A stretch of 54,959 nucleotides of DNA from Akkermansiaceae bacterium. Its GTDB lineage: Bacteria; Verrucomicrobiota; Verrucomicrobiia; Verrucomicrobiales; Akkermansiaceae. Made by a program: the position numbers and the translations under genes. The DNA lies in contig CAIVSK010000019.1 in the NCBI GenBank assembly GCA_903908495.1, positions 1 to 54,959 on the forward strand, read 5' to 3'. Below, piece after piece: positions 34,469 through 43,731 of this stretch. The first letter of the stretch is position 1; each line of letters starts with the position of its first letter. Below the pieces are notes generated by a model. It was not told the origin of the DNA and did not search any database. It saw only the letters and a program-made list of their open reading frames with translations.

Positions 34469-34630
34469 TCAATCCGTCACCCGCGCCCGCTGAGTTACCA
34501 GCGCCGTTAGCAGGACCAACCCGACAACGGATATTGCCAGCGGGCGGCGGATTTTTGCCAGACCCGCTTGCGGCCATCCGAAAAACCCGCCATCCCCCCG
34601 CACAATTCGCTTGAACCCGCCGCAAACCAT
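34469..34630 (-). CDS. Possible 53-aa single-span membrane protein
   Basis: A short frame from ATG 34630 to TGA 34469. The product has a basic N-terminal part (MVCGGFKRIVRGDGGFFG) and one predicted membrane segment flanked by charge (KIRRPLAISVVGLVLLTALV, then TQRARVTD). It lies 26 bp upstream of the GH127-type gene in the same direction. Only length, hydrophobic pattern and position support it; it is not a family I recognise and could be chance in GC-rich DNA. Confidence 0.3.
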   Translation of the reverse strand: MVCGGFKRIVRGDGGFFGWPQAGLAKIRRPLAISVVGLVLLTALVTQRARVTD

Positions 34631-34647
34631 GCCAATTATCGAAATCG

Positions 34648-35310
34648 ATGAGGACGCACAGAATTTTGTTGGTTGATGACCATCCTTTGATGAACGAAGG
34701 CCTGAGGCAATTGTTGGACTCGCAACCCGGGCTCACCACTTGCGGCATGGCTGGCTCGGTGCAGCAGGCCATCGCGCTGGTGGACTCGACCAAACCGGAT
34801 TTGGTCATCACCGACCTGACCCTGCCGGGGCGCAATGGCCTGGAACTCATCAAGGACCTCGGTGCCACCCATCCGGAACTGCCCATCATCGTGCTCTCGA
34901 TGCACGATGAGTTGCTCTATGCCGAACGCGTGCTGCGTGCCGGCGGGCGCGGTTATGTCAGCAAGGATTCACCAGCCGAACGCATCATCGAGGCCATCCA
35001 TTGCGTGCTTGACGGGGAGGTGTTCGCCAGCCCCGCCGTCACCAAGCATTTTCTGCAGGCCATGGTACCCGGCAGGGGCGCGGCCAAACCGAGTTTCCCG
35101 CTGGAGCGGCTCACCGATCGCGAGATCGAGGTGTTCGAGTTGATCGGCCACGCCAAGAGCAACCACGACATCTCCTGCCAACTGGGCATCAGCCCGCGCA
35201 CCGTCGACGTCCACCGCGCCCATATCCGCGAGAAACTCGGCCTCGAGGACGGCAGCGCCTTGACCCGCCATGCCATCCGCTGGGTCGAGGTGGGCATGAT
35301 CGGTACTTAG
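34648..35310 (+). CDS. NarL/FixJ-family response regulator (orphan)
   Basis: 220 aa. Receiver domain: RILLVDDHPLMNEGLRQLL, phospho-acceptor Asp in LVITDLTLPGRNGLE, Thr/Ser position in IIVLSMHD, and Lys in GYVSKDSPAERI. Linker, then a LuxR-type HTH: LERLTDREIEVFELIGHAKS and ISCQLGISPRTVDVHRAHIR. No histidine kinase lies beside it, so its partner is elsewhere. The gene is divergent from the GH127-type gene and followed by the repeat island. Confidence 0.93.
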   Translation: MRTHRILLVDDHPLMNEGLRQLLDSQPGLTTCGMAGSVQQAIALVDSTKPDLVITDLTLPGRNGLELIKDLGATHPELPIIVLSMHDELLYAERVLRAGGRGYVSKDSPAERIIEAIHCVLDGEVFASPAVTKHFLQAMVPGRGAAKPSFPLERLTDREIEVFELIGHAKSNHDISCQLGISPRTVDVHRAHIREKLGLEDGSALTRHAIRWVEVGMIGT

Positions 35311-35399
35311 CCGGGCAGAGCGTCACCACGCATCCGTTCCCGGCTTGGGGGATGCCTATCCGCCAGACGGCTTGCGGCAGCAGGGAACGCCGGAGCTCT

Positions 35400-35615
35400 G
35401 CCGGTTTAGCCAAAGCGGCGTGGCGGGCTTGCGCCCTTCCCGCCGCACTCCACGCTTTGGCTCGCGCAGGCGACAAGCACTCATCGGCTCGCGCAGGGAT
35501 CGCCAAAGTGTGGACTGCGGTGGCAAGCGCCAGCGCGACACCGCTTTGGCTCGCGCTGGCGACGGGCATGCATTGGCTCGCGCTGGCGACAAGCACTCAT
35601 CGGCTCGCGCAGGCT
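35400..35615. repeat. Palindromic and direct-repeat island
   Basis: The core GGCTCGCGC(A/T)GG occurs five times, starting at 35459, 35486, 35548, 35575 and 35602; three of the four spacings fit a 27-bp period. A 29-bp exact direct repeat lies at 35469-35497 and 35585-35613. An 18-bp inverted repeat (16/18) pairs 35443-35460 with 35503-35520, and CGCCAGCGCGA near 35529 pairs with TCGCGCTGGCG near 35551. Non-coding. The mixture of foldback and tandem units fits an expanded REP-like element. Confidence 0.85.
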
Positions 35616-35632
35616 AGCGCTGGCATGCGGCC

Positions 35633-35851
35633 TCAAGAGCGCGACTCAGGTGCTGCGGGCAATGATCCGCCGCTCATCCGCTGGAGCAGCGCGCGCACCA
35701 CATAGCGCTGGCGGGGTCTGAGCGGACTGATGTCCAGGCCAAGCCGGAACACCGCGATAGAGCGGTCCCCGGCACAGCCGGCTGAGGGCGCCCCCCCACT
35801 TCTGTTAGTAACGTCGATCGGACTGGCGGCGGGTTTGGCAGGTGCTTTCAT
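35633..35851 (-). CDS. Doubtful 72-aa ORF
   Basis: The frame from ATG 35851 encodes a Pro/Ala-rich start (MKAPAKPAASPIDVTNRSGG) and a basic C-terminal half (LRPRQRYVVRALLQRMSGG). No family recognised. It occupies part of the otherwise gene-free 35311-36076 stretch. Apart from this ORF, the repeat island and the ECF-type promoter near 35989, I see nothing in that stretch. Confidence 0.2.
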   Translation of the reverse strand: MKAPAKPAASPIDVTNRSGGAPSAGCAGDRSIAVFRLGLDISPLRPRQRYVVRALLQRMSGGSLPAAPESRS

Positions 35852-35988
35852 CCCTGTTAGGCTAGCACCTGTTCCTGCCGTGCCAATTGGCTGATCCGGA
35901 ATCACGGAACTCGCATGTTCGGAGGATGCACATAGGGGATTTCACGTAGACCACCGAACCGGTCAGCGCTGGCCCGATTTTAAAAAAG

Positions 35989-36016
35989 TGTAACATCGGC
36001 GGCGAAATGGTGTAGA
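35989..36016 (+). promoter_or_regulatory. ECF-type promoter candidate before the membrane-protein/sigma operon
   Basis: TGTAAC (35989-35994), a 16-bp spacer, then TGTAGA (36011-36016), preceded by an A-run. The same arrangement recurs at 37792-37819 before the first kinase. The ATG follows 60 bp after the -10-like element. The TGTAAC hexamer is rare in this window, so the match in two promoter positions within one gene cluster is notable. Confidence 0.6.
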
Positions 36017-36076
36017 AAACAAGGCAGCCGATGACGGCCCCAACCGTCCACCGACACTAACCCTCCCAGCCTAACC

Positions 36077-37054
36077 ATGAATACGCTAGAAAGCAATAAT
36101 CGCGGGATGAAGACCCCGTCAGCAATCGGTCTGGTACTTGTATCAGTTTTAGTCACCCTGGCCATCGAGGAATCGCGCATCGCGGCGCTGCGCTCGTCGG
36201 TCAATCCGGCGCCCGCCACCCGCGCCGAGCTTTCACCAGCCACCCCCGTGGCAGGTGCCGGCCCTAACCGATCAGCCGATTCCAGCGGTCCGCCGGTCCG
36301 CCCGGCGGCGCGGCCCGCCGCAGCGCCGGACCCGGCGCTGGCCGCAGCCGAGGACGAGTCCTTCGCCAAGACCGCCCGCAAGATGTGGGACAATCCGGCC
36401 GGCAAATCCATGATGAGCCAAGGCGTGAAGATGGCCGTGGGCATGATGTACCAGGATTTCATCGACGGCTTGAAGCTGACGAAGGAGGAAGGCGGCTATT
36501 TGAAAGACCTTCTCGGCAAGCAAATGGCCGACCAACAGGAACTCGGGATGAAGTTGCTGGGAGCCTCGGACGATGAGCGCAAGGCGCTGACCGAAGAAAT
36601 CACCCAGCGCAGCAACGAGAGCGACGCGCAGATCCGCAAATTCCTCAACAGTGAAGAGGATTCCAAGAGCTTCAGCGACTACAAGAGCCGGCTGCCCGAG
36701 CACCAGCAACTCGACGGCATCCGCAGCGCCATGAACACCCAGGGCACCCCCCTCGACGCCGATACCGAGGCCAGCCTGGTCGATGCCATGTACCGTGCGC
36801 GGACCGAGGCCGGCACCCCGGATCTGTCCGGCCCCGGCGCGCTCGACGAGATGGCCAAGGGCACCCTCACCGCTACCTTTGAGACCAGCTGGGACAAGCA
36901 ACAGGCAACCCTCCAGGCGGAAGCCGCCAAAATCCTCAGCGAGCCCCAGCTGAGCGCCTTCCAGGACTATCAAAAACAAATGAAGGAAATGCAACTCATG
37001 GGCCTCAAAATGGCCGAAAAAATGCTGCCTGGAAAAAAGACCGGGGCCCCATGA
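36077..37054 (+). CDS. Membrane-anchored protein of unknown function, coupled to the ECF sigma gene
   Basis: 325 aa. One N-terminal membrane segment (SAIGLVLVSVLVTLAIEESR, about 15-35), a Pro/Ala-rich linker (about 45-95), then a soluble helical domain (about 100-325) with LTKEEGGYLKDLLGKQMADQ, SDDERKALTEEITQRSNESD and a C-terminal amphipathic helix ending MAEKMLPGKKTGAP. Not a family I can name. Its stop overlaps the sigma-factor start (ATGA, 4 bp), so the two are translated together. An extracytoplasmic sensor or anti-sigma-like role is an inference from this coupling only; no anti-sigma motif such as a zinc HxxxCxxC is present. ATG at 36107 is an alternative start. Confidence 0.85.
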   Translation: MNTLESNNRGMKTPSAIGLVLVSVLVTLAIEESRIAALRSSVNPAPATRAELSPATPVAGAGPNRSADSSGPPVRPAARPAAAPDPALAAAEDESFAKTARKMWDNPAGKSMMSQGVKMAVGMMYQDFIDGLKLTKEEGGYLKDLLGKQMADQQELGMKLLGASDDERKALTEEITQRSNESDAQIRKFLNSEEDSKSFSDYKSRLPEHQQLDGIRSAMNTQGTPLDADTEASLVDAMYRARTEAGTPDLSGPGALDEMAKGTLTATFETSWDKQQATLQAEAAKILSEPQLSAFQDYQKQMKEMQLMGLKMAEKMLPGKKTGAP

Positions 37055-37782
37055 CCCACCCCGCCTCCCACCCGCCGTTTTTCGCCACCACCCGCTGGAC
37101 GCTGGTGTGCGATGCGGCGCAAGGTGGCGACACCCGGGCGGTGGCAGCGCTGGGCGACTTGTTTGCCACCTACTGGCAGCCGCTCTATCGCTATGCCCGG
37201 CGCCTCGGCAAGTCCAGGGAAGACGCCGAGGACCTGGTGCAGGGGTTTTTCACCCACTTGATCGAACAGTGCGCGCTGCGCGACACCGACCGCAACAAGG
37301 GCCGCTTCCGGGCGTTTCTGCTCGCCTCTTTCAACCACTGGATCATCAACTCGTGGAAACACGCCAGCCGTCAAAAGCGCGGCGGCGGCATCGCCCCGCT
37401 GTCGTTTGATTGGCACAGCGCCGAGACCGGCCTCAAGCTCGAGGTCGCCGACGAGCGCAGCCCGGACCGCCTGTTCGACCGCGAGTGGGCGCTGACCCTA
37501 TTGGAAAAAGTGCTCGGCGAGCTGGAGGCGGCCTGCCGCGCGGAGGGCGGCGCGGCCCAATTCGACCAATTGAAGCCCTGCCTGACTGCGGATTCCAGCC
37601 GCATCCCCTACGCCGAACTGGCGGCCGGACTCGGCCTCAGTGAGGGGGCGGCGCGGGTGGCGGTCCACCGCCTGCGCAAGCGGTACCGCGCGTTCCTAAC
37701 CGCCGAAATCGCGCGCACACTGGCATCCCCCGCCGCCGTGGAGGAGGAGATGCGGGCCTTGTTCGCGGTGCTTGCGGAGTAG
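37051..37782 (+). CDS. ECF-type RNA polymerase sigma factor
   Basis: 243 aa. Region 2: FATTRWTLVCDAAQGGDTRA, LFATYWQPLYRYARRLGKSR and EDAEDLVQGFFTHLIEQ, which contains the core-binding and -10-recognition helices. Region 4: IPYAELAAGLGLSEGAARVA followed by VHRLRKRYRAFL, the -35-recognition HTH. A linker of about 90 residues, longer than in many ECF factors, separates them. This form is typical of Verrucomicrobiota/Planctomycetota ECF groups encoded beside Ser/Thr kinases. It overlaps the membrane-protein gene by 4 bp and is followed at 59 bp by a kinase. Likely autoregulated through the promoter at 35989-36016. Confidence 0.92.
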   Translation: MTHPASHPPFFATTRWTLVCDAAQGGDTRAVAALGDLFATYWQPLYRYARRLGKSREDAEDLVQGFFTHLIEQCALRDTDRNKGRFRAFLLASFNHWIINSWKHASRQKRGGGIAPLSFDWHSAETGLKLEVADERSPDRLFDREWALTLLEKVLGELEAACRAEGGAAQFDQLKPCLTADSSRIPYAELAAGLGLSEGAARVAVHRLRKRYRAFLTAEIARTLASPAAVEEEMRALFAVLAE

Positions 37783-37791
37783 CACTTTTTC

Positions 37792-37819
37792 TGTAACGAA
37801 TCCGCCGCCACGTTGTTGA
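37792..37819 (+). promoter_or_regulatory. ECF-type promoter candidate before the first Ser/Thr kinase
   Basis: TGTAAC (37792-37797), a 16-bp spacer, then TGTTGA (37814-37819), preceded by a T-run. It fills the 59-bp gap between the sigma gene and the kinase gene and ends 22 bp before the kinase ATG. Spacing and hexamers match the site at 35989-36016. Confidence 0.6.
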
Positions 37820-37841
37820 GGAAAGGTGCCCCCCCTCCATC

Positions 37842-40394
37842 ATGACAGCCCCCATCGCCCCTCCCCTCTGCCCCGACTGCGGCACCCCGCTGCCGCCGGA
37901 GTCCCCGCAGGCGCTCTGCCCCGCGTGCCTGCTGCGCCAGGCGCTCGCCTCCCGCACGCTCGTCGCCGACAGCGGGGACCCGCCCCCTCTGCCGCCGCCC
38001 ACGCCGGAGGAAATGGCCGACAAGTTCCCCCAGTTTGAAATCACCTCCTGCCTCGGCCGCGGTGGCATGGGCGTGGTTTACAAGGCCCGCCAGAAATCGC
38101 TAAACCGCTGGGTGGCCATCAAAATCCTCCGGCAAGACCGGGTGGGTGAGGAGAAATTCGCCGAGAGATTCGCCCGCGAGGCGCAGACGCTCGCCCGCCT
38201 CAACCACCCTAACATTGTCACCGTCTTCGACTACGGCGAAACCGCCGGTCTGTTCTACATCGTCATGGAATTCGTCGACGGGGTGAACCTGCGCGACCTG
38301 CTGCGCGACGGCAAACTGGCCCCCAAACAGGCGCTGGCCATCGTCCCGCCCATCTGCGAGGCGCTGCAATACGCCCACGACAAGGGCATCGTCCACCGCG
38401 ACATCAAACCGGAAAATTTATTGCTGGATCGCGATGGCCGGATCAAGATAGCCGATTTCGGCATCGCCGCGCTGGTCGGCGCCGGGGGGGAGGCCGCCGG
38501 CACGCCGCCCTACATGGCTCCCGAACAGGCCGGCACCGCCGCGGAAATCGACCACCGTGCGGATATCTATGCGCTCGGAGTGGTGCTCTACGAAATGCTG
38601 ACCGGCGAGCGCCCCACCAAGGATGTCGTCGCCCCCTCGCGGAAAGTCCAACTCGACGTGCGGATCGATGAGATGGTGCTAAAAGCGTTAGATAAGACCC
38701 CGGAGTTGCGCTATCAAACGGCGGGCGAATTCCGCAGGGTGGTGGAGACGCTGGCTGGATCTGCAGCAGAACCACCGGCGGCAACGCCGCCACCCGTGCC
38801 GCCCCCGCTGGTGGCGGCCCAGGCTGCGGCGGCCAATCCAGACGCCGCCATCAAGGCCGCCGCCATCGCGATGATGATCGTGAGCGGGTTGAGCAGCGTC
38901 GTCCTCATTTTCGGTTCACTCATCGCCGGGGGCATGATTTTGTTTGTGCGCGACCGCGTGGTTTCGGTTGGGAGTCTGCCACGCTGGGCATCCATGATTC
39001 CCGTTTCCAACCATGGAACGATGATTCTGTCCCATGCGGCACTCATGAGCCTCATGGTTCTGTGGATTGTCGTGGTTCTGCTCGGCCAGGTTGTCCCATT
39101 CCTGGCGGGCGTGCAGATGAGCCGGCTGCGGCACTATCGATTCGCCATCGCGGGTGCGGTGGTCATGATTGTGTTAGGCCTGACCGGCGGGGTTTTGCAA
39201 ACTCCAGGTGCGCCCGGATTCGCGGGCACGTGGGCGCTGGTGGAACTTGGCGTTGGCATATGGGCGCTGGTGGTGGTGTTGCGGCCGGGAACAAAGGCGT
39301 TGTTCGCGGCGACGGCGAGGCCTGTCTCCCCTCGGGAGCAGCTAGCCGTCACGGCGGCCGACCCCGCCGACGCCCGCCAATGGGTGGCCGCGCCGGCGAT
39401 CGGCTTGATGGTCGCGTCGGGTCTCAATCTGTTGCTGGCCGGGGGCTTGGTGCTGGCTCTGGTGATGCTAACCCTTTTGCGCGCCGGGCCTTTCCCCGCA
39501 TCGCCGCCCAGCGGCGGGATGGTGCCGGCGGCGGGCCTGCTGAGCTTGCCGCTGGTGGCCCTGGTATTCGTCGGCTTGCCCGCGCTTCTGACTTTCATTG
39601 GGGCTTGGCGGATGCGCCGGCTCAAGGGTTATGGCCTGGCGGTGACGGCGGCCATTCTCGCCATCATCACCCCGCCGGGATTGCTCGTCGGCCTGGCCTT
39701 TGGCATCTGGGCGCTGATGGTGCTCGCCCGCCCGGACGTGCAAGCGGCGTTTCAGCGCGAGCAATCCCGCGCCACCGGCAGAGGCTGCCTGCTTGCGGGT
39801 TTCGCGCTGCTCGGGGTGCTTGTGCTAGCAATTCTGGTGATCATCGGGTTGCGGCTGTTGCTGCCACATCACCGGACCGCGTCATTTTCCCCGGCGACCC
39901 CACAGGTTCATCCGCAAAATTCGCCAACCCCGCTTTCCGGGCAAGTCATCGAGCGCAGCCTGGCCCTCAACACCGACGGCACCAGCGATCTGCTCGACCC
40001 GCGCAGCGGCGAGGTCACGCCCGCGCCGACCCCGGCGCAATGGACCATCCCCGGCTTGTTCATCCACCGCGACGCCGCCTTGGTAGAAACGATGCTAACC
40101 GGTGCCAACGGCGCGCTGGCGCAGGAGTCGCGCGCCGATCAATGGGACCACCTCAGCAACACCCAGGCGCTGGCTACACTCCGCGCCAGCTCCAGCAGCC
40201 AGGGGATGACCATCGGCGCGGTCGGCCACGGGGACCTGCCGCAAACCTTCCTGTTCAAGACCCTAACCGGTGAAATCGGCATCCTGCAAGTTCTCCGCTT
40301 CAGCGACAACCCGCGCAGCGTGACGTTCCGCTACAAGTGGGTGGAGGATGCGGCGGGCCAGCCCGCATCCAAACCCGCGGAGGCAATCCGCTGA
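37842..40394 (+). CDS. Ser/Thr protein kinase with N-terminal zinc ribbon and multi-span membrane domain
   Basis: 850 aa. Zinc ribbon at residues 10-29 (CPDC and CPAC pairs). Hanks-type kinase domain from about 65 to 310 with all key motifs: GRGGMGVVYKARQKSLNRWV, AIKIL (ATP Lys), YAHDKGIVHRDIKPENLLLD, KIADFGIAALVG and TPPYMAPEQAGT. A Pro/Ala linker is followed by about seven or eight hydrophobic segments from 345 to 685 (for example AAIAMMIVSGLSSVVLIFGS and GCLLAGFALLGVLVLAILVI), then a C-terminal domain of about 160 residues outside the membrane, unidentified. It probably senses an envelope signal. Transcription is likely driven by the adjacent ECF sigma factor. Confidence 0.94.
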   Translation: MTAPIAPPLCPDCGTPLPPESPQALCPACLLRQALASRTLVADSGDPPPLPPPTPEEMADKFPQFEITSCLGRGGMGVVYKARQKSLNRWVAIKILRQDRVGEEKFAERFAREAQTLARLNHPNIVTVFDYGETAGLFYIVMEFVDGVNLRDLLRDGKLAPKQALAIVPPICEALQYAHDKGIVHRDIKPENLLLDRDGRIKIADFGIAALVGAGGEAAGTPPYMAPEQAGTAAEIDHRADIYALGVVLYEMLTGERPTKDVVAPSRKVQLDVRIDEMVLKALDKTPELRYQTAGEFRRVVETLAGSAAEPPAATPPPVPPPLVAAQAAAANPDAAIKAAAIAMMIVSGLSSVVLIFGSLIAGGMILFVRDRVVSVGSLPRWASMIPVSNHGTMILSHAALMSLMVLWIVVVLLGQVVPFLAGVQMSRLRHYRFAIAGAVVMIVLGLTGGVLQTPGAPGFAGTWALVELGVGIWALVVVLRPGTKALFAATARPVSPREQLAVTAADPADARQWVAAPAIGLMVASGLNLLLAGGLVLALVMLTLLRAGPFPASPPSGGMVPAAGLLSLPLVALVFVGLPALLTFIGAWRMRRLKGYGLAVTAAILAIITPPGLLVGLAFGIWALMVLARPDVQAAFQREQSRATGRGCLLAGFALLGVLVLAILVIIGLRLLLPHHRTASFSPATPQVHPQNSPTPLSGQVIERSLALNTDGTSDLLDPRSGEVTPAPTPAQWTIPGLFIHRDAALVETMLTGANGALAQESRADQWDHLSNTQALATLRASSSSQGMTIGAVGHGDLPQTFLFKTLTGEIGILQVLRFSDNPRSVTFRYKWVEDAAGQPASKPAEAIR

Positions 40395-40523
40395 GCGCCA
40401 GCCTGCTGATGTGCCTGCCTGCAGCACCGGCGCGATCGTCCGGCAGCGGTTGACAATGCCGGGCGGCTGTGGCAAAAACCGTTGGAGTGCCCAGACGATG
40501 AGCGCACACCAAAAACAATCCCC

Positions 40524-42380
40524 ATGACCGAGGCTCCTGACAACTCCCAGGCGATCCAGGAATGGCTGGCGCACCTCAACCAAGTCTTGAGTGCCTATCA
40601 TTTCGAGTCATTCATTGCACGCGGCGGGATGGGGTATGTCTTCAAGGCCTGGCAGAAGTCGCTCGAACGCAGTGTCGCCGTCAAGATCATGTCGCGGCGC
40701 TATGGCAGCGATGAGCATTTCCGCGCATCGTTCGCCACCGAGGCGAAGGCGATGGCCCGCCTCAACCATCCCAACCTCATCGGCGTCTACGACTTCGGCC
40801 AAGTCGATGATATGCCATACATCGTCATGGAATATGTGGCGGGCAGCTCGCTCCATGACGCCGCCGTTGACCGCAAGATCGACCCTCAAGCGGCAGTCCG
40901 CATCATCCGCGGGATGTGCGCGGGCCTCATCCACGCCCATGACAACGGCGTGATTCACCGTGACATCAAACCCGCCAACATCCTTCTAACCGCCGACGGA
41001 CAGCCGAAGATCGGCGACTTCGGGTTGGCACGCCAACTTGGCACCGCAAGCGAGGGTGTGTTGATGGGCACCCCCGGATACATCGCTCCGGAAGTCTTCC
41101 TGCATCAAGACTCGGCAGACCGGCGCTCGGATATTTTTTCAGTCGGGACCATTCTCTATCAATTACTCAGCGGCCGGGAGCCCGCTGCCACCAGCGCGGT
41201 GAGTTCCGGCCTCGTTGATTGTCCCTCCGCTCTGCTGCCGATCTGCCAGCAGGCGATGCATCCAGATCCCAATCGTCGCTACCAGGACGCCCGCGCCTTG
41301 GACCGCGCGCTGCTAAATTGGCAAACGCTGCAAGCCTCGCCAGCAACCACCGGACCCATGGCAGGAATAACCAGGCGACTGCTGGCGGGCTCAGCGGGTC
41401 GAAAGCCAGCCGCGACGCTGCCCAATTCCGGTGCTCGTGGCGGCCTGGCGCGCTCACCAAGCGGCAGATCCAGGGGCGGCGGCAACCACGGCCGTCAACT
41501 GCTCCAACTCCTGCTTATCGGGGCTGCCATCGGATCCATTCCTTTCACCTACAAGGCGCTGCAGCTACGCCGGAATGCGGGGGCGGCCCCGGTTCCACCG
41601 GTCTCCGCAAACCCTGTCACCAACCCACCCGTCACCAACCCGCCCGCCACCAGCCAACCGGCCAAGCCAATGTTAGATCCAAGGCAGGCGGCGGTACCGC
41701 CCTCTGCACTGCCCATATCCCCGGCATCGAAACCGACTCCCCCGCCAATAACGAGCCTGCGGCCGCCGCAGCCACAACCGCGACGCAACGACCCTCTCAC
41801 GACCCGGCAGGAGCCCCGGCAAACGCCCGCTGAGATGCAATCATCCACCGCGAGCGAGAGCGCGGCAAAGGCGCAACTGGACGAGTCCATGGCAAAACTC
41901 ATTGATGCCCTTGAGCCGCTGAAGACGCCGGACCTGCAACGCGCCCAACTGGCCTACGAAAATCTGAAAATACTCGCTGCCACTCAAAGCGGAGCCACCC
42001 GGAGCGAGACCGAACGATTGAAAGGCATCATCGGCACCTTGTCCGCCGCTGAAATCAGGATCAGCGCCGCAGTCAAAAAGCGCAAGCAAGCCGAGAGTGA
42101 GGCGACTTCTCACGACGCCGCAGCCAAGGCCTGGCAAACGCCGAACCGGTTTGGCTTCGTGAATCAGCAGGCCGTGGCGGAAAATTTGAACGAAGCCAAG
42201 CAACTCAGGCAGGATGCGGCACAGGGCATTGCCGACGCGCACAAAAACCTTGACAAGCAATTGGGAGATATGACTTCTGTCATTGATAGTTATGTCAAAC
42301 TTCAGCAACCCGACATCGCCGGAATCCTGACCGAAATGTGCAAGGCGGTCAAATCGCGAACACCACCCAAAAGCGGCTAG
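40524..42380 (+). CDS. Ser/Thr protein kinase with single TM and coiled-coil C-terminus
   Basis: 618 aa from the ATG at 40524 (MTEAPDNSQAIQEWLAHLNQ). The kinase domain (about 25-285) is complete: ARGGMGYVFKAWQKSLERSV, AVKIM, VIHRDIKPANILLTADGQ, KIGDFGLARQ and MGTPGYIAPEVF. One TM segment (LLQLLLIGAAIGSIPFTYKA, about 330-350), then a Pro/Thr-rich stretch (about 360-440) with near-repeats of NPPVTNPPAT, and a helical coiled-coil-like C-terminus (about 445-618) with many Ala, Lys and Glu. No zinc ribbon. The gap to the first kinase is 129 bp with no TGTAAC site, so it may depend on the same transcript. Confidence 0.93.
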   Translation: MTEAPDNSQAIQEWLAHLNQVLSAYHFESFIARGGMGYVFKAWQKSLERSVAVKIMSRRYGSDEHFRASFATEAKAMARLNHPNLIGVYDFGQVDDMPYIVMEYVAGSSLHDAAVDRKIDPQAAVRIIRGMCAGLIHAHDNGVIHRDIKPANILLTADGQPKIGDFGLARQLGTASEGVLMGTPGYIAPEVFLHQDSADRRSDIFSVGTILYQLLSGREPAATSAVSSGLVDCPSALLPICQQAMHPDPNRRYQDARALDRALLNWQTLQASPATTGPMAGITRRLLAGSAGRKPAATLPNSGARGGLARSPSGRSRGGGNHGRQLLQLLLIGAAIGSIPFTYKALQLRRNAGAAPVPPVSANPVTNPPVTNPPATSQPAKPMLDPRQAAVPPSALPISPASKPTPPPITSLRPPQPQPRRNDPLTTRQEPRQTPAEMQSSTASESAAKAQLDESMAKLIDALEPLKTPDLQRAQLAYENLKILAATQSGATRSETERLKGIIGTLSAAEIRISAAVKKRKQAESEATSHDAAAKAWQTPNRFGFVNQQAVAENLNEAKQLRQDAAQGIADAHKNLDKQLGDMTSVIDSYVKLQQPDIAGILTEMCKAVKSRTPPKSG

Positions 42381-42639
42381 TGCAATGCGGGTTCCGCGTG
42401 GCCGGGTGGCGTGACGCCAGCCGTAACGGCCACTGCAGCAAGAAATACCCGACAAAGCCCCTTGTCAAAGCGGGCCTGCCGGATATTTTCGCGTTCGAGA
42501 AGTCTCACCATGATTCCGCCCAAAAAAACCTTCGCCGCCACGATTCCCGCCGTACCAGCACCTGCGTCGGCCCCGGGCGTGGCCTAACATGATGCGCATG
42601 CCTCCAATGATCCACATCTCACGCAATCTCCAAGAACTT

Positions 42640-43731
42640 ATGATTCCCAAATCCCGCCCAGCCAACCGTCCATGCCAACGCGCGGCGCTTTGCGTCGCTT
42701 CGATTTTCGTCATCGGGCAACCGGTGAGTGGCGCTCCCAGCCGCGTGGACGCCGTGCGACCTCTGCAAGCCAGTGCTTCCAGCCCGGGCGTTCACGAGCG
42801 CTGGAACAGCGATGCAGCCAATAGCCCGGTCGCCAACGCTGCCACAACAGCGGCCAAACCACCCGCGCCGGCGGTCCTGCCGGGCAAGGGACTGGCCCAA
42901 CACGACTTCTTTTATGCGGGCGAGGCCAAGGACGAGCGGATGTTTATCGTGCGCGACGGCAAGATCGTCTGGACCTACACGCATCCGGCCCAGGGCGAGA
43001 TTAGCGACGCGACATTGCTGCCCAACGGCAACGTGTTGTTCGCGCACCAGCGCGGCGTGACGGAAATCAGCGCCGACAAGAAAGTGGTTTGGAACCATGA
43101 TGCCCCCGCCAACACGGAGATCCACACCGCGCAACCGTTCGGTACAAACAGCGTGTGGTTCATTCAAAACGACAACCCGCCGAAGTTCATCGTCATCAAC
43201 AAGACCACCGGGGCCACCGACAAGGAGTTTGTTTTACCGGTTAAGAACCCCGGCAGCACCCACGGCCAATTCCGCCATGCCCGGATGACCGACGCCGGCA
43301 CCTTGCTGGTTGCTCACATGGATTTGGGCAAGGCCGCCGAGTACGACCTATCCGGCAAGCAACTTTGGTCGGCGGATGTGCCGGGCATCTGGTCGGCCAC
43401 GCCGCTCCACAACGGCAATGTGCTCGTCGCCAGCAACAACAGATTCGTGCGCGAGCTGGACCGCCGGGGCCAGGTCGTTTGGGAATGGAAACCCAGTGAC
43501 ACCCCCGAATACCAAATGTCCAATCTGCAACTTGCCACGCGCCTGCCTAACGGAAACACGCTCATCAATAATTGGTTCAACCAATGGAACGACAAGTTCA
43601 ATGCCGCCACCGCGGAGGTGCAGGCGATCGAGGTGACATCTGACAAAAAAGTGGTCTGGGCGCTGCGCTCATGGGAAGATCCCGCGAACCTCGGCCCGGC
43701 CACAACCCTTCAGATTTTGCCGAAGCAATAA
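42640..43731 (+). CDS. Secreted PQQ-like beta-propeller protein
   Basis: 363 aa from the ATG at 42640, which gives a basic start and hydrophobic signal (MIPKSRPANRPCQRAALCVA, then SIFVIGQPVSGAPS); the frame also has an ATG at 42589. After a low-complexity linker, blade repeats follow: MFIVRDGKIVWTYTHPAQGE, ISDATLLPNGNVLFAHQRGV, HGQFRHARMTDAGTLLVAHM, IWSATPLHNGNVLVASNNRF and LATRLPNGNTLINNWFNQWN. The DG-x-V-W and LPNGN pattern is that of PQQ/arylsulfotransferase-like propellers. No catalytic residue set was recognised, so binding or scaffold function is likely. Bases 42381-42639 hold only a 25-codon ORF (see rejected items). Confidence 0.87.
   Translation: MIPKSRPANRPCQRAALCVASIFVIGQPVSGAPSRVDAVRPLQASASSPGVHERWNSDAANSPVANAATTAAKPPAPAVLPGKGLAQHDFFYAGEAKDERMFIVRDGKIVWTYTHPAQGEISDATLLPNGNVLFAHQRGVTEISADKKVVWNHDAPANTEIHTAQPFGTNSVWFIQNDNPPKFIVINKTTGATDKEFVLPVKNPGSTHGQFRHARMTDAGTLLVAHMDLGKAAEYDLSGKQLWSADVPGIWSATPLHNGNVLVASNNRFVRELDRRGQVVWEWKPSDTPEYQMSNLQLATRLPNGNTLINNWFNQWNDKFNAATAEVQAIEVTSDKKVVWALRSWEDPANLGPATTLQILPKQ

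Follow-up and report, generated by a model that had tools for sequence, protein, structure and literature searches.

Two copies of a bipartite motif, TGTAAC followed after 16 nt by TGTWGA, lie in the same direction on either side of an ECF sigma gene and ahead of a Ser/Thr kinase gene, and on the sequence evidence they are very probably promoters of that sigma factor, which would be autoregulated and control a small regulon made up of itself and the kinase. The first-pass annotation had proposed that the sigma factor drives both its own operon and the kinase. Three lines of evidence argue for this proposal, namely a footprint of both sites in sigma orthologs, a strong, orientation-specific over-representation of the -35 element within the sigma-to-kinase gaps of the wider family, and a match of the two -10 regions within each locus.

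Sites and genes of the locus

In the window (the whole stretch of 54,959 nucleotides that was analysed), both sites of the first-pass annotation, TGTAAC-N16-TGTAGA at 35989-36016 and TGTAAC-N16-TGTTGA at 37792-37819, were confirmed on the + strand. The 59-bp gap it had described between the sigma gene and the first kinase extends from the sigma stop to the kinase ATG (37783-37841), and an A/T run does precede each site (35977-35987 and 37786-37790). The features are as follows.

35977..35987, + strand: A/T tract 5' of promoter 1, possible UP-like element (from the sequence and an A/T bias at -8 to -5 in pooled sites of the window's clade)
35989..36016, + strand: putative promoter 1, with -35 TGTAAC (35989-35994), 16-nt spacer and -10 TGTAGA (36011-36016), preceding the 325-aa gene and the sigma gene
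36077..37054, + strand: 325-aa protein, with one N-terminal hydrophobic stretch (by eye) and a Pro/Ala-rich linker; no Pfam or NCBIfam match
37051..37782, + strand: ECF sigma factor, 243 aa, DAED kept (Sigma70_r2, Sigma70_ECF and TIGR02937 above cut-off; alignment A1)
37786..37790, + strand: T5 tract 5' of promoter 2 (from the sequence)
37792..37819, + strand: putative promoter 2, with -35 TGTAAC (37792-37797), 16-nt spacer and -10 TGTTGA (37814-37819), within the sigma-to-kinase gap
37842..40394, + strand: Hanks-type Ser/Thr protein kinase, 850 aa (Pkinase E 2.6e-55; translation)
40482..42380, + strand: second Ser/Thr kinase, 632 aa (Pkinase E 1.2e-49)

The sigma factor consists of sigma2 and sigma4 domains and little else, as in group 4 (ECF) factors. 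Sigma70_r2 (5.7e-8) and Sigma70_ECF (3.3e-5) both pass the Pfam cut-offs, TIGR02937 covers residues 33-212 above its cut-off, and the sigma profile matches the solved chains of the ECF factors SigE and SigH. The sigma start overlaps the stop of the 325-aa gene (ATGA). The 850-aa kinase shows N-terminal CxxC pairs, a kinase domain, the sequences HRDIKPEN and DFG, and a hydrophobic C-terminal half. By sequence, no copy of the motif lies ahead of the second kinase (40482..42380), and none of the loci had a recognisable anti-sigma gene.

Among 17 pooled sites of the window's clade, columns -8 to -5 read A, A, A, T at 0.6-1.3 bits, so the A/T patch is partly conserved. In addition, a conserved leader resembling AGGAA...GAACCCC follows the kinase -10 at 37820-37841 and in several loci of the window's clade, and repetitive stretches resembling GGCTCGCGC...GGCGACAAGCACTCAT occupy 35400-35620, between the response-regulator gene and promoter 1. 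A search for an RNA element with Rfam over positions 34500-43000 gave no matches up to E=0.1, and this candidate was rejected.

Occurrence in the genome and in sigma orthologs

The 6.19-Mb draft genome contains just two exact copies of TGTAAC-N16-TGTWGA, the pair at the sigma/kinase locus, and no match to the reversed-pattern control. The random genome-wide distribution that the first-pass annotation had named as its refutation was therefore not found for the exact motif. The relaxed pattern GTAAC-N16-KKTWGR has six sites in the genome, and the four beyond the window pair all fall inside reading frames, although two of them (L102 and L103) also have a reading frame starting less than 200 bp downstream. 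The same pattern with an N19 spacer, taken as a control, has eight sites; with one mismatch allowed, N16 gave 202 matches and N19 gave 185, which is no clear excess over the spacer control across the genome. Nor was the motif enriched at further ECF/kinase loci of this genome, the support that the first-pass annotation had suggested looking for: the two closest paralog loci (C182 and C307) carry no motif. The lack of the motif in the closest paralogs, together with the relaxed counts, makes the regulon look local, and a genome-wide regulon was rejected at this stringency (two exact copies, other relaxed sites within reading frames, 202 vs 185 one-mismatch matches). Among the one-mismatch matches listed, a TGCAACCCATTCCATTNTCCTTTTTAGR-like sequence, perhaps an interspersed repeat, recurs in this genome at C64, C77, C182 and C190.

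Scanning of 62 genomes of the genus revealed that 14 of 33 motif matches lie at these loci, in eight genomes with a close sigma ortholog. In many genomes the reversed-pattern control outnumbered the motif matches, which reflects base composition, and the spacer control was used instead.

Close sigma orthologs were present in eight other genomes of the genus among 60 searched (E 4e-98 or better in seven, 1.6e-94 in G021), and more distant orthologs occur outside those eight; the culturable Luteolibacter marinus has a 55% relative. Eleven orthologs had readable DNA upstream of the sigma gene (L087, L088, L089, L090, L091, L013, L092, L093, L094, L113 and L114). In nine of these, NGTAAC-N16-NNTA lies 37-46 bp ahead of the sigma start, and the remaining two keep the N16 spacing with GAAAC (L113) or GTAAT (L114) in place of GTAAC. 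An NGTAAC-N16 site also precedes the kinase in 9/11 (L087, L088, L089, L091, L013, L092, L093, L096 and L113) and is absent from L094 and L114; contigs L090 and L096 belong to a single genome, in which contig ends interrupt the sigma gene. In L091 the sigma and kinase genes are separated by a second sigma/kinase pair, encoded on the opposite strand, yet TGTAAC-N16-TTTTGA is still present ahead of the kinase. The motif core in relatives is captured better by NGTAAC-N16-[G/T][G/T]T[A/T]G[A/G], in which the -10 part is usually GGTAGR at the sigma site and TTTTGA at the kinase site. In the window's clade the spacer has a constant length of 16 nt, so that GTAAC and the following 16 nt present the AAC of the -35 and the fixed spacer of an ECF promoter.

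The 12-position motif of the first-pass annotation reached p<0.05 in 8/11 regions before sigma and 7/10 after it (1000 dinucleotide shuffles); in other sigma-family loci it did so in 1/32 and 3/32, respectively (300 shuffles). Before sigma, this single-locus shuffle test fails for L094, L113 and L114, which are more divergent, and in L093 the best-scoring stretch is a tie and not the site. The downstream miss in L091 is the inserted sigma/kinase pair.

Promoter 1 of the window lies 60 bp ahead of the 325-aa gene, while each of the 11 orthologs has the site, or a variant of it, directly before sigma, with no 325-aa gene between. Furthermore, no homolog of the 325-aa protein was detected in the nine genomes (of 99) with close sigma orthologs (G002, G012, G020, G021, G025, G026, G039, G054 and G068). 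This suggests that the 325-aa gene came under the sigma's promoter in the window lineage. The six homologous loci examined (L068-L073) are stand-alone genes, with no nearby sigma and no matching promoter ahead; on this ground, and for want of a homolog in the nine ortholog genomes, the idea that the 325-aa gene belongs to a conserved system with the sigma factor was rejected. The profile of the 325-aa protein had no match among solved chains up to E=1.

GTAAC in kinase gaps and matched -10 regions

The sigma-family records numbered 132, of which 92 formed the first set and 40, retrieved later, were held out. The first set gave 37 sigma-to-kinase gaps with lengths of 20-130 bp, and the held-out set gave 13 gaps. 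In the first set, GTAAC was the top-ranked pentamer both in the gaps (21/37 vs 1.00 expected) and before kinase-paired sigmas (13/37 vs 1.07 expected), and before sigmas without an adjacent kinase it was found in 6/48 (1.54 expected). It ranked first in the held-out gaps as well (4/13 vs 0.24-0.27 expected), and in the held-out regions before kinase-paired sigmas no GTAAC enrichment was seen (1/13 vs 0.29 expected, p 0.26), nor did any of the 21 held-out regions before other sigmas contain it. Gaps from outside the window's clade retained the enrichment (17/40 vs 0.88 expected). In the pooled gaps, GTAAC was present in 25/50 and its reverse complement GTTAC in 0/50, which places it in the kinase orientation only; since half of the gaps are without it, the element is frequent and not universal. 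In the sigma tree, loci with GTAAC fall into several different supported clades, and the clade of the window has 12 members and a support of 1.00.

GTAAC stands on both sides of the sigma gene in 12 of the 50 kinase-paired loci, a count that leaves out the window because its promoter 1 precedes the 325-aa gene. By these counts, the kinase appears to be targeted no less consistently than the sigma gene (25/50 gaps vs both sides in 12/50 loci). The kinase is divergent in six cases. Two of these, the near relatives L185 and L215, carry GGTAAC-N16-TGTAGG/C upstream of sigma on the reverse strand, facing the kinase, and the -10 there is of the same type as in the window. GTTAC was enriched before sigmas without a downstream kinase (7/66 vs 1.75 expected); of these seven, two or three point towards a divergent kinase.

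The -10 regions vary between lineages and agree within a locus. For the 13 loci that carry GTAAC on either side, nine columns around the -10 were compared using 100,000 permutations; the two sites of one locus agreed at 5.77/9, and sites of different loci at 3.78 (p about 1e-5). When the window's clade was represented by one member together with six other loci, the values were 6.29 and 3.67 (p 0.0006), and the six loci from outside this clade alone gave p 0.004. Examples of such pairs are CCAAGG/CCAAGG in L231, CGCAGA/CGAAGA in L184 and GTAAAA/GTAAGA in L200. The first 12 spacer columns were also somewhat alike within loci (5.15/12 vs 3.92 between, p 0.004; 0.02-0.05 in sets of 6-7 loci), and shared descent of both promoters may account for some of the match. 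A shared -35 with -10 regions that drift together on both sides is the trace expected of an autoregulated sigma factor with the kinase as its second target.

Recognition by the window sigma is deduced from sequence, and GTAAC recurs across many sigma lineages, so that a -35 of this kind does not by itself reveal which factor reads it; both genes could happen to be driven from these sites by another sigma factor, perhaps the housekeeping one. We consider this very unlikely, because -10 sequences follow the sigma/kinase pair beside them, the genome holds no exact copy of the motif outside this locus, and the sites and close sigma orthologs co-occur (14/33 matches at these loci, in 8/62 genomes of the genus). 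A conserved bipartite motif can also be an operator for a DNA-binding regulator. Against this, the motif is not palindromic and is one-directional in the kinase gaps (25/50 vs 0/50), an orientation that ruled out a symmetric operator, GTAAC starts 29-55 bp ahead of the estimated kinase start in 23/25 gaps, and the 16-nt spacing is fixed in the window's clade. These are properties of promoters, and the operator reading is highly improbable. That the sites arose by chance in GC-rich DNA rich in near matches (202 with one mismatch), or are two functionless DNA copies of shared descent, as the weak spacer similarity within loci might hint, is scarcely credible given the ortholog footprint, the held-out enrichment and the controls.

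Proposed circuit and relation to known systems

In the circuit that we propose, with the sigma factor encoded between the sites as their reader, RNA polymerase carrying it would contact the -35 TGTAAC through region 4 and the GKTWGR-type -10, 16 nt further on, through region 2. Promoter 1 would transcribe the 325-aa gene and sigma, and promoter 2 the kinase. Such an arrangement would form a positive loop: active sigma would always bring about synthesis of the kinase, and the level of this synthesis would not depend on transcripts reading through from the sigma operon; the pair would share its -35 with others and have a -10 of its own. As a target of its sigma factor, the kinase would be embedded in a feedback loop instead of serving purely as an upstream sensor, and it would presumably set sigma activity in turn.

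For Verrucomicrobiota more broadly, we lean, with considerable reserve, towards many ECF/kinase pairs being self-contained loops with one promoter each for sigma and kinase, a shared GTAAC -35 and private, co-evolving -10 regions, which would allow several paralogous pairs per cell without cross-talk. This would amount to a testable promoter code for a large and little-studied sigma/kinase family, in which the two ends of a locus predict each other's -10, and the promoter specificity of many paralogs could be read from sequence alone. This rule was not found in titles and abstracts of literature on ECF/kinase promoters in Verrucomicrobia or Planctomycetes and on TGTAAC with ECF, and the predicted motifs of the 2021 ECF classification may already include a GTAAC -35.

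The sites resemble autoregulated ECF promoters generally, for which AAC in the -35 is a hallmark (PMC8103513), autoregulation is described in most ECF sigmas (PMC5333181), and strict requirements for elements and spacer are reported (PMC6411747). They differ from these in a -10 that is GKTWGR-like and not plain CGT, and in the second copy dedicated to the kinase.

Similarly, in the ECF43 pairs EcfP-PknT of Vibrio parahaemolyticus and EcfK-PknS of Xanthomonas citri, the ECF gene adjoins that of a Hanks-type kinase and no anti-sigma is recognised (PMC8103513, PMC8999054, PMC13147305); a kinase gene adjoins the sigma gene in the window and in most loci of its clade. However, ECF43 sigmas are without DAED and gain the charge by phosphorylation (PMC8999054), whereas D58 A59 E60 D61 (DAED) is invariant in 9/9 aligned sigmas of the window's clade (alignment A1). 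The ECF43 phospho-switch, in which phosphorylatable residues replace DAED, is therefore not what is found here, and any phosphorylation control of the window sigma would act at another site. The window sigma instead fits the description of the other STPK-linked groups, six ECF groups having been proposed as such and those other than ECF43 showing DAED or a similar charged sequence (PMC8999054). A further difference is that the passages on the ECF43 pairs describe no separate matched kinase promoter (PMC8103513, PMC8999054, PMC13147305). Ser55, three residues ahead of DAED, is also invariant in the 9/9 aligned sigmas and is either a candidate phosphosite or merely a helix cap.
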